This document shows positions 432-14,278 of a stretch of 64,000 nt of DNA, piece after piece. The stretch is from the NCBI GenBank assembly GCA_029257805.1, contig JARIAR010000067.1, positions 1 through 64,000 of the forward strand, read 5' to 3'. The notes beneath the pieces were generated by a model. It was not told where the DNA came from. It was given only the letters and a program-made list of their open reading frames with translations, and did no database searches. The DNA comes from Blautia sp. GTDB taxonomy: Bacteria; Bacillota; Clostridia; Lachnospirales; Lachnospiraceae. Position 1 is the stretch's first letter; the number at the start of each line of letters is the position of its first letter. A program made the position numbers and the translations under genes.

Positions 432-471
432 AAAAAAAGGGCAGTACCTGGTCATTCACCAAATACTGCCC
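432..471 (-). terminator. riboswitch-controlled intrinsic terminator upstream of fhs
   Basis: On the minus strand an 8-bp GGGCAGTA/TACTGCCC stem is followed by seven T (forward A-run 432-438). The first bases of the stem are the CTGGGC that closes the ZTP aptamer, so aptamer and terminator cannot both form. This predicts read-through into fhs when ligand is bound. Confidence 0.88.
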
Positions 472-543
472 AGACGGTCGGCTAAAACAATTCCCTGAAT
501 CCCTCGTGGTATTTCCCACCCTGCTCCGTCAGTAATCAAGGAA
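468..543 (-). promoter_or_regulatory. ZTP (pfl motif) riboswitch aptamer
   Basis: Read on the minus strand the leader contains the hallmark blocks of the pfl/ZTP class: GGTGGGAAATACCACGAGGG and, nearer the 3' end, CCGACCGTCTGGGC. The P1 pairing TTCCTTGA/TCAGGGAA is visible. ZTP riboswitches sense the purine intermediate ZMP/ZTP, which builds up when 10-formyl-THF runs short, and fhs is a classic target. The class assignment is by recalled consensus. A THF riboswitch was considered and does not fit the 3' block. Confidence 0.9.
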
Positions 544-562
544 CTTCCTGTTTATGGTAAAA

Positions 563-759: not shown

Positions 760-1197
760 ATGCGGGTGTACAGAACAGAGTTTCTAGATATTTTAAAGAC
801 CCAATTATCCGGACAGATGCACGAAGGGAAAATAGCTGCACATCTTCGATATTATGAAGATTATATCCAGTCCAAAGTGAGATCCGGAGAAGAAGAAGAG
901 GAGGTTATCCGTCAGATTGGAGATCCCCGGCTGATTGCAAAGACGCTTTTGGATACAGATACAGGAGATGATGTTTACGAAGAAAGTCAGAGTTACTCGG
1001 AACATGAGGCGGAAAGTAGTCGTGAAGAACGAAGAAGTTACCGGCTGGATCTATCTACCTGGTATGGAAAATTAATTGTAGTGGCAGTTGCTGCCGGAAT
1101 TATTTTCGTGCTTGTAAGCGTATTGACAATGGCATTGCCATTTATTTTGATATTTGCGGCTGTATTATATCTGATTTCTAAATGGAGAAAGCGCTGA
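760..1197 (+). CDS. HAAS/DUF1700-type small membrane protein
   Basis: 145 aa. The first ~65 residues form a charged helical domain with the HAAS/DUF1700 pattern: EFLDILKTQL, then HLRYYEDYIQ, then acidic EEEEEVIRQIGDP and a conserved GDP turn. A variable hydrophilic linker follows (70-100). A hydrophobic segment at about 107-140 would anchor it in the membrane, followed by a basic end KWRKR. Proteins of this type often act with PadR-like regulators or in envelope signalling, but no PadR gene is adjacent here. AGGGAG precedes the start closely. A terminator follows, so it is probably monocistronic. The fold is a reasonable call; the function is unknown. Confidence 0.8.
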   Translation: MRVYRTEFLDILKTQLSGQMHEGKIAAHLRYYEDYIQSKVRSGEEEEEVIRQIGDPRLIAKTLLDTDTGDDVYEESQSYSEHEAESSREERRSYRLDLSTWYGKLIVVAVAAGIIFVLVSVLTMALPFILIFAAVLYLISKWRKR

Positions 1198-4004: not shown

Positions 4005-4010
4005 ACATGA

Positions 4011-4079
4011 AAAAAGAGCGTTTTGATAGGTCCTCTGTCTATTTAAGAGGAATCCTATCATTTAAACGCTCTTTTTTTA
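4011..4079 (+). terminator. terminator of the parA-like operon
   Basis: A long stem pairs AAAGAGCGTTT.TGATAGG with CCTATCA.TTAAACGCTCTTT, with a smaller inner TCCTCT/AGAGGA pairing, and ends in seven T. Confidence 0.85.
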
Positions 4080-4094
4080 TAGAAAAATTGCAGA

Positions 4095-4202
4095 TAAAAA
4101 GAAATACCCGCTAGGGGAGCTAACGGGTATTTCGAGGGGAGTATAAATAATTAAATAAGGGGTTATGTAAAAAAAATTTTTGAAGGGTAAATTCTTTTTA
4201 CA
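4095..4202 (-). ncRNA. candidate C-rich regulatory small RNA
   Basis: About 108 nt on the minus strand, starting about 7 bases after a TTGCTT-17-TATAAT promoter. Hairpin 1 (4201-4189 with 4179-4167) is 13 bp with a loop containing ACCCUUC. A linker carries AACCCCUUA and ACUCCCCUCG. Hairpin 2 (4132-4120 with 4114-4102) is 13 bp with loop CUCCC and is followed by UUUCUUUUU, so it doubles as the terminator. In both stems the only non-Watson-Crick pair is G-U when read on the minus strand but A-C on the plus strand, which supports this orientation. Repeated C-rich unpaired motifs are typical of RNAs that pair with ribosome-binding sites, such as RsaE/RoxS. No homology to a named family is claimed. 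Confidence 0.6.
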
Positions 4203-4208
4203 ACATTG

Positions 4209-4237
4209 ATTATAATATAAATTGGAAAAAAAAGCAA
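4209..4237 (-). promoter_or_regulatory. promoter of the candidate small RNA
   Basis: TTGCTT (4237-4232) and TATAAT (4214-4209) on the minus strand with 17 bp between. The predicted start falls at the first base of hairpin 1. Confidence 0.6.
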
Positions 4238-4249
4238 TATAATTTTGTT

Positions 4250-4278
4250 GAATATTATTCGGGCTTTTTGACATAATA
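4250..4278 (+). promoter_or_regulatory. forespore sigma-G/sigma-F-type promoter
   Basis: GAATA and CATAATA with 17 bp between match the Bacillus sigma-G pattern GHATR - 17/18 - CATWHTA at every position. A weaker sigma-A reading (TTGAAT-18-CATAAT) overlaps it. It drives the 50-aa gene at 4323. Confidence 0.6.
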
Positions 4279-4322
4279 AGTACTGTAAGAAACAAAATCA
4301 TTGTATCAGGAGGAGTATTAAA

Positions 4323-4475
4323 ATGGCAAAAAATTATGAATCCGCAAACAAAAATATTAAAAACGAAATGGAAGGTCAGGCTGAGAAAACTGTAAAGACT
4401 GTACAGAGCAGTCGTTATAGCGAAAACAGTAAAAATGCAAAAGATAAAGACGAAGTTTCTAAAAACAGATACTAA
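4323..4475 (+). CDS. 50-aa polar protein, probably forespore-expressed
   Basis: ATG to TAA, 50 codons, starting MAKNYESANKNIKNEMEG and ending KDEVSKNRY. AGGAGGAG lies 6 bases before the start, and a terminator follows. The protein is very hydrophilic, rich in Asn, Lys, Glu and Ser, with no Cys, Trp or hydrophobic core, so it is likely disordered. It does not carry the alpha/beta-type SASP signature. Size, composition and the sigma-G-like promoter at 4250-4278 suggest a minor spore-core protein of a type other than the main SASPs, but this is inference. The ribosome site and flanking signals make it a real gene in my view. Confidence 0.75.
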   Translation: MAKNYESANKNIKNEMEGQAEKTVKTVQSSRYSENSKNAKDKDEVSKNRY

Positions 4476-5530: not shown

Positions 5531-6685
5531 ATGGAAAAATGGGAATTGATTGCGCCCTGCCATTTTGGTCTGGAAGCAGTTTTAAAAAGAGAAATATTGG
5601 ATCTTGGATATGAGATCAGTAAAGTTGAGGATGGAAAAGTTACATTTTGGGCAGATGCACAGGGAATTGCAGATGCAAATATGTTTTTACGTACGACAGA
5701 GAGGATTCTTTTAAAAGTAGCAGAGGTAAAGGCAACTACATTTGAAGAGTTATTTGACAAAACAAAAGAACTTCCATGGGAGAAATTTATTCCTTCAGAT
5801 GGAAAATTCTGGGTTGCAAAAGCAAATTCTGTAAAAAGTAAATTATTTAGTCCTTCTGACATTCAGTCGATTATGAAAAAAGCCATTGTGGAACGTTTAA
5901 AAAGCGTATATGGCATTTCCTGGTTTCAGGAGGACGGGGCAAGTTTTCCTATTCGAGTAGCGTTTATGAAGGATGTTGCAACAATTGGAATTGATACATC
6001 CGGTGTTTCCCTGCATAAAAGGGGATATCGTCAAATGACTGTAAAAGCTCCTATCACAGAGACGCTGGCATCTGCTTTGATCATGCTTACACCGTGGAAC
6101 AAAGACAGAATTTTAATTGATCCGTTTTGTGGAAGCGGAACTTTTCCAATAGAGGCGGCAATGATAGCTGCAGATATTGCACCGGGCATGGAACGTTCTT
6201 TCCTTGCAGAAGACTGGAAGCATCTTGTGCCGAGAAAATGCTGGTATGAAGCGTTGGAAGAGGCACAGGATCGAGTGAATCTGAATATTGAAACAGATAT
6301 CCAGGGATTTGATATTGATCCGGATGCCTTAAAAGCAGCAAGAGCCAATGCCAAGATGGCAGGTGTGGACAGCCTTATTCATTTTCAGCAAAGACCGGTA
6401 AAAGATCTGCGGCATTCGAAACCATACGGATTTATTATTACCAACCCTCCTTATGGAGAACGATTAGAGGAAAAAGAAGCTCTTCCGGGACTTTATAGAG
6501 AAATTGGAGAAAGTTATAATCGTTTGGACAAGTGGTCCATGTATCTGATTACCTCATATGAAAAAGCAGAACAGGATATAGGAAGAAAAGCAGATAAAAA
6601 CCGCAAAATATATAATGGAATGTTAAAAACATATTATTACCAGTTTCTTGGACCTCGTCCGCCTAAGAAAAACAAAGGAAAGTGA
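5531..6685 (+). CDS. THUMP-domain class I RNA methyltransferase (RlmL/YpsC family)
   Basis: 384 aa. A ferredoxin-like/THUMP half (about 1-160) begins WELIAPCHFGLEAVLKREI. A Rossmann methyltransferase half follows, with the SAM-site motif DPFCGSGTFPIEAA near 197-210 and the catalytic TNPPYGERL near 309, the NPPY motif of N-methyltransferases. Relatives such as E. coli RlmL modify a guanine in 23S rRNA, while many genomes label the family as adenine-specific DNA methylase; the RNA assignment is better supported. The protein ends in a basic PRPPKKNKGK tail. It precedes rdgB by 7 bp, implying one transcript. Confidence 0.9.
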   Translation: MEKWELIAPCHFGLEAVLKREILDLGYEISKVEDGKVTFWADAQGIADANMFLRTTERILLKVAEVKATTFEELFDKTKELPWEKFIPSDGKFWVAKANSVKSKLFSPSDIQSIMKKAIVERLKSVYGISWFQEDGASFPIRVAFMKDVATIGIDTSGVSLHKRGYRQMTVKAPITETLASALIMLTPWNKDRILIDPFCGSGTFPIEAAMIAADIAPGMERSFLAEDWKHLVPRKCWYEALEEAQDRVNLNIETDIQGFDIDPDALKAARANAKMAGVDSLIHFQQRPVKDLRHSKPYGFIITNPPYGERLEEKEALPGLYREIGESYNRLDKWSMYLITSYEKAEQDIGRKADKNRKIYNGMLKTYYYQFLGPRPPKKNKGK

Positions 6686-14133: not shown

Positions 14134-14209
14134 AAAAAAACTACCGGGTGCAGCCTTTGTTTTTTCCGCCGTCCACGAATAAAACTTATAGGCAACTATT
14201 ACGGTAGTT
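14134..14209 (-). terminator. riboswitch-controlled terminator upstream of guaD
   Basis: On the minus strand AACTACCG (14209-14202), which is the 5' half and loop of aptamer stem P3, pairs with CGGTAGTT (14146-14139) that runs into seven T. The stem spans a long loop of about 55 nt. No local partner for the 3' arm exists, so termination should need an unfolded aptamer. Confidence 0.65.
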
Positions 14210-14247
14210 GGTAGAGACGTCCAACCTATTATGGACTTATATAAGTT
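14183..14247 (-). promoter_or_regulatory. guanine-class purine riboswitch aptamer
   Basis: P1 AACTTATA/TATAAGTT, P2 GTCCA/TGGAC, J2/3 GTCTCTACC, P3 CAACTA/TAGTTG with loop CCGTAA, and J3/1 ending in C directly before P1. That C is the specificity base equal to C74 of xpt, which pairs with guanine (U would mean adenine). All core elements of the purine class are present. Confidence 0.93.
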
Positions 14248-14278
14248 GCTGTGTTAAAATATGTCTTTCTCATAAAAT

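Follow-up and report, generated by a model that had tools for sequence, protein, structure and literature searches.

A conserved C-rich small RNA gene with a frozen linker in Blautia, predicted to act in trans and used as an integration site

The small RNA gene, its structure and its strand

The window, by which we mean the whole 64,000-nucleotide stretch of Blautia sp. contig JARIAR010000067.1 (assembly GCA_029257805.1) that was analysed, carries on its minus strand a predicted small RNA (sRNA) gene (Table 1), which comparison of sequences leads us to regard as real with high confidence. A TTGCTT-17-TATAAT minus-strand promoter followed by a unit of about 108 nt had been proposed here in an initial annotation, and both are present, with a likely start near 4202. 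The proposed second stem and T-run are likewise seen, as a terminator hairpin followed directly by a U-run to ~4095, and each stem has its single G-U pair on the minus strand as claimed, though the fold gives 14 bp in both hairpins and not the 13 bp originally counted. The linker between them carries CCCC near its 5' start and CUCCCC near its end, with an AU-rich middle. The fold of 4202-4085 has a minimum free energy of -29.8 kcal/mol against a shuffle mean of -9.2 (sd 2.55, n=200; z -8.1), and none of the 200 shuffles is as good. The likely genes flanking the sRNA on both sides in the window lie on the plus strand. A long inverted repeat at window 4010-4077, with an A-run before it and a T-run after, is likely a bidirectional terminator separating the sRNA from the region of the ParA-type gene.

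Table 1. Features of the predicted sRNA gene in the window
Feature	Position	Strand	Basis or remark
-35 box TTGCTT	4232..4237	minus	sequence reading; aligned in congeners
-10 box TATAAT, 17-nt spacer from -35	4209..4214	minus	sequence reading; aligned in congeners
sRNA gene, covariance model R1 match	4096..4202	minus	129.3 bits, E 2.1e-26, the window sequence itself being among the 27 training sequences of R1
Predicted transcript	~4202 to ~4095	minus	start position likely
5' hairpin, 14 bp, loop ACCCUUCAA	4166..4202	minus	fold and covariation
Unpaired linker, 32 nt	4134..4165	minus	fold and conservation
Linker 20-mer TTAATTATTTATACTCCCCT	4135..4154	minus	exact in 41/295 order genomes
3' terminator hairpin, 14 bp, C-rich loop CUCCC	4101..4133	minus	fold and covariation

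The stems are conserved in relatives, where a covariance check finds compensatory changes both within the genus and across the order. In the genus alignment of 27 Blautia sequences, picked because their linkers are equally long, 97.3% of the 741 cells are paired and two-sided changes occur in 17 of the 28 pairs; no shuffle among 500 attains any covariation measure, and structures slid along the same alignment drop to 43-59% paired cells. Covariance model R1, built from these 27 sequences, gave 96 matches over 93 chosen loci at E 0.05, a count that includes three on the wrong strand (L205, L060, L023). The order-wide alignment, which leans towards R1, has 95.7% of 2468 cells paired and two-sided changes in all 28 pairs, a pair count also attained by 63/500 shuffles, while the other four measures are attained by none. 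Folding without an alignment points the same way, 164/179 of the 5' segments and 175/179 of the 3' segments beating all 20 of their own shuffles. When 29 congener copies are aligned with the window, the promoter, loop 2 and linker are near-invariant and the terminator stem is altered on both sides.

Strand was decided by the wobble pairs. G-U/U-G cells outnumber A-C/C-A cells by 43 to 3 in the genus and by 146 to 21 order-wide, which identifies the minus strand as the RNA, the orientation first proposed. The unpaired C-runs that had been assigned to both loops and the linker fared unequally: those of the linker are the constant part, unlike those of the loops, where a C-run is found in loop 1 of 99/179 distinct members and CCC in loop 2 of 123/179, counting the last loop of each predicted fold. 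Comparison can be said to establish that there is a gene and on which strand it lies, along with the two hairpins, the promoter-like boxes, the frozen linker described below and, for the 48 Lachnospiraceae genomes sampled, the lack of a recognised Hfq. Stand-alone gene status would fit the conserved promoter and terminator that the gene has of its own, together with the gene order shared by its relatives.

Distribution, frozen linker and neighbouring genes

When the sRNA was compared by blastn with 145 relatives, including 63 congeners, clear matches (E 5e-9 or better) were obtained in 57 of the 63. For four of these (G006, G017, G034, G063) the full RNA is not spanned by any one match: three are broken by contig ends, and G017 has an interior fragment together with another stretch where a contig begins. 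The six congeners lacking a clear copy have completeness of 75 to 89%; blastn gave no match in two of them (G007, G050) and matches only at E 0.001 to 0.08 in the others (G025, G049, G055, G061). Model R1 at E 0.01 matched 48/295 genomes of the order under strict filters that lose weak matches. The carriers comprise 26/48 sampled Lachnospiraceae (f1), the other 22 having no clear copy in this strict search, 16/22 Vallitaleaceae (f22), both f21 genomes and the single f4 genome; three weak matches, probably due to chance, come from f2, f8 and f11. Relatives of the sRNA are found in Lachnospiraceae, Vallitaleaceae and two further families. Beyond the order, a search of the class yielded one match with an E-value of 4e-6 (L107) and five between 0.004 and 0.01.

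Scanning named genomes with a sequence pattern returned at least 118 stretches, mostly titled Lachnospiraceae or its genera, with three of Vallitalea type among the matches listed; because most of the linker is fixed by the pattern itself, loci found in this way were excluded from measuring linker conservation. Among the 207 distinct pattern matches listed, 197 have a hairpin on either side and a promoter-like pair, as scored by a loose pattern. A pattern search of 299 phylum genomes found, besides the window, only two-mismatch places, none folding similarly. The plasmids searched contained no match to the sRNA, and the phages searched gave two 32-base matches at E 0.08, both in staphylococcal phages. 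A large structured-RNA screen of human microbiomes has been reported, and this sRNA may be among its candidates. In the titles and abstract beginnings of the openly licensed literature we found no paper describing it, and excerpts from PMC5171806 name no such RNA.

Scanning the linker 20-mer TTAATTATTTATACTCCCCT with up to two mismatches over the 295 order genomes located it at 57 places in 47 genomes: 49 exact, none with one mismatch and eight with two. The exact places belong to 41 genomes of f1, f4, f21 and f22, and four of the two-mismatch places (G085, G301, G230 and G134:C109) are also model matches; in the 299 phylum genomes the only exact occurrence is the window's own. Three Vallitaleaceae genomes have the exact 20-mer three times each, with differing stems around the same core. 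The AU-rich middle is conserved as strongly as the C-runs. That the linker stays frozen across four families, with both stems drifting around it, calls for an explanation.

Neighbours within 3 kb were grouped for 206 locus records, with clusters formed by single-linkage BLAST and named by likeness. An RlmL/Trm14-like methyltransferase cluster lies near the sRNA in 115/206 records, with 105 members placed upstream in divergent orientation and 10 placed downstream; for the window's own methyltransferase-like gene (5531-6685) the best NCBIfam models score below their own cut-offs. A phosphodiesterase cluster occurs in 70/206, an RdgB-type cluster in 43/206 and the family of window 760-1197 in 38/206, mostly downstream and convergent, which is also the placement of 49 of the 53 tRNAs encoded within 2 kb of the sRNA at 18 loci. 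This shared gene order points to vertical inheritance. A second setting is seen in some genera (L047, L048, L051, L088, L220), where a tRNA array with tRNA-Arg as its nearest gene faces the sRNA in convergent orientation.

On the plus strand of the window a small divergent Asn/Lys/Ser-rich ORF (MAKNYES..., 4323-4475) is preceded by an AGGAGG site. Of the 188 loci with sufficient flank, 64 have a similar ORF on the upstream side of the sRNA, as scored by a loose pattern with at least one probably false hit (L036); the window ORF, a conserved neighbour, has no Pfam or NCBIfam match. Just upstream of the -35 box, a GGTACTTTGGTACTAT-like repeat is seen in 15/201 sRNA promoters (L083, L087, L092, L157, L159, L163, L171, L180, L187, L189, L208, L210, L214, L225 and L230); considered as an operator, it was rejected, as its count over six genomes (13 places) showed no excess over that of the control (14). 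A ZMP/ZTP riboswitch lies a few kb from the sRNA both in the window (461-546, minus) and in L205 (4869-4950, minus), which is from another genus, and the window has a purine riboswitch at 14169-14264 (minus).

Likeness to known families and probable mode of action

At curated cut-offs no Rfam family matches the sRNA in the window or in 15 chosen relatives. Below threshold, a 131-base search ranked csRNA first (RF02379, 30.1 bits against a cut-off of 57), with RsaOG/RsaI (RF01775, 27.7 against 50) and RsaE/RoxS (RF01820, 21.7 against 79) also present; csRNA is absent from the listing of a 331-base search, in which RsaOG alone of these three C-rich families appears. Like the csRNAs, the sRNA has two hairpins, the second a terminator, with an unpaired, conserved anti-Shine-Dalgarno region between, but it falls short of the csRNA cut-off, its whole linker is frozen and it belongs to another bacterial group. 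CiaR-dependent csRNA promoters carry TTTAAG repeats, and inspection by eye of 4300-4238, upstream of the sRNA -35 box, finds no TTTAAG. For the csRNAs of streptococci, the relevant parts of PMC3091779 describe a pair of stem-loops separated by an unpaired anti-SD stretch, an inter-hairpin region common to related copies, an unpaired anti-start CAU in 53/61 and a UCCUAAA nonamer in all but four; by eye, neither CAU nor the nonamer occurs in linker 4165-4134. The layout is closest to that of the csRNAs, of which the sRNA is not a member, and it probably works as they do.

The other two families share less. The model of RsaI/RsaOG, a CcpA-repressed sRNA of Staphylococcus, has a 5' domain, a long unpaired pyrimidine-rich region and a terminator, but its 5' domain is larger and the score is well below cut-off; RsaI/RsaOG represses glcU_2 and fn3K by pairing with the SD sequence, according to a section of PMC9266662. 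The resemblance to RsaE/RoxS raised in the initial annotation holds for the UCCC motif in an unpaired region (CUCCCC in the linker here) and otherwise, given the low score and a different linker sequence and layout, amounts to analogy; in RsaE/RoxS this motif is proposed, in the same section, to pair with mRNA and block the ribosome. Pairing at Shine-Dalgarno or start regions is described or proposed for all three families in extracts of PMC3091779, PMC4507080 and PMC9266662. We regard the sRNA as a new family of a known kind, the C-rich regulatory sRNAs.

The reading we favour, and consider on balance probable, is of a stand-alone, trans-acting sRNA of about 105 nt whose linker C-runs cover ribosome sites, with no Hfq taking part in Lachnospiraceae. 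The gene's own promoter and terminator would yield the free RNA, the 5' hairpin and terminator would guard its ends and keep the linker open, and the linker CCCC and CUCCCC would block the translation of several mRNAs by pairing with their G-rich ribosome-binding sites. Transcription, mRNA pairing and repression are steps that we infer, and a role as translation regulator is probable. PF17209 (Hfq) had no match in any of the 48 f1 genomes sampled, among them that of the window, so the sRNA would act without a recognised Hfq in Lachnospiraceae. The same search, which gave matches in 5/14 control genomes, finds Hfq in 107/295 order genomes, among them the f4 genome, both f21 genomes and 15/16 f22 carriers.

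Pairing was assessed on 382 genes from 464 kb of sequence, made up of the window and a further 400 kb of its genome, with genes called by a crude script demanding a ribosome-site-like motif. As to the pairing with ribosome sites anticipated at the outset, start regions (mean linker pairing energy -10.5) beat coding (-7.4) and far-upstream regions (-7.0), but not beyond what shuffled linkers achieve: 55/60 full shuffles and 56/60 shuffles of the AU part only have a mean start-region energy at least as low. Specific targets gain no support from this comparison, and the top-ranked start-region pairings were consequently dropped as targets, the real linker being no better than shuffles. A long complementary target for the core was likewise rejected: across 10 Blautia genomes a 16-nt complement to the core, with up to two mismatches, occurs at 27 places, 10 of them the sRNA gene itself, against 35 for a reversed-pattern control. 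One two-mismatch form of this complement recurs in G004 and G051.

Ribosome-site pairing alone does not explain the frozen AU-rich middle, which is probably read by a protein or by a few specific targets. Conceivably, the linker chiefly binds a dedicated RNA-binding protein, as a sponge or hub or for carriage of the kind Hfq provides, with mRNA pairing secondary or absent. We hold this to be a tentative, rather doubtful account, to which the conservation of the AU-rich middle along with the C-runs, the showing of the shuffled linkers and the lack of excess of long complementary sites all lend weight; the missing Hfq in f1 would require another partner there, and the authors of the csRNA work, in part of PMC3091779, float such a role for the nonamer conserved among their RNAs. 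The partner protein is, however, hypothetical only, C-runs at both linker ends are typical of anti-Shine-Dalgarno sRNAs, and nearly all sampled Vallitaleaceae carriers have Hfq together with the same core. An extended form, in which the frozen linker is the site for an RNA-binding protein replacing Hfq in Lachnospiraceae and the sRNA is its main partner, a lineage-wide hub as well as an integrative-element landing site, we think unlikely. An sRNA as conserved as this offers a direct handle on RNA-based control in Lachnospiraceae, which are major gut commensals.

Promoterless copies and integration of mobile elements

In Blautia sp. MSJ-9 (G023:C18, L235 1-19991; L057 is the same place and not a further locus) a full sRNA gene and a promoterless linker-terminator copy lie 19.5 kb apart (core positions 125 and 19583). 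The gene of a tyrosine integrase (PF00589, E 2.7e-26) is convergent with the first core at a distance of some 230 bases, and the 19.5-kb element also encodes a resolvase-domain protein. Linker and terminator form direct repeats in L235, L062 and L130, the left edge of the repeat coinciding, give or take a few bases, with the junction of hairpin 1 and linker (AACCCC in L235, CATAAACCCC in L062, TAACCCC in L130). Integrase relatives or their C-terminal remnants are found downstream of the gene in L024, L030, L149, L018 and L062. These data identify the sRNA gene as an integration site of a tyrosine-integrase element in Blautia, and so as a definite place on the chromosome at which a mobile element of this genus attaches; the incoming element would supply its own linker and terminator, leaving the gene whole.

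The promoterless linker and terminator copies (second copies in L062, L130 and L235; L236) might suggest a cis element, that is a leader, an attenuator or the 3' end of an adjoining mRNA. We judge this very improbable, as the promoter boxes are kept across the genus, the window's likely flanking genes are both on the plus strand and the sRNA on the minus, the L235 copy marks the distal end of an insertion, and the remaining promoterless copies are inferred to be element ends from direct repeats or likeness. Slightly less likely again is the view that the locus is only an attachment site or mobile-element repeat with no RNA gene: the direct repeats and downstream integrase sequences would suit it, but the shared gene order, with its methyltransferase cluster, the conserved promoter outside the repeat and the compensatory stem changes would all be superfluous for an attachment site. 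Least credible of all is a small protein gene or plus-strand transcript: a 74-aa minus-strand ORF (4077-4301) spanning the sRNA would suit it, but linker and stem lengths vary by one or a few bases among relatives, so that no frame is kept, and the order-wide excess of G-U over A-C cells favours the minus strand.

Two viral contigs of IMG/VR carry the linker and a terminator-like hairpin with no sRNA promoter, at L231 247-270 and L234 85-108. In L231 a lysin-type gene and a holin are followed by the promoterless copy, some 2.6 kb from the contig end, an arrangement that looks like the end of a prophage.
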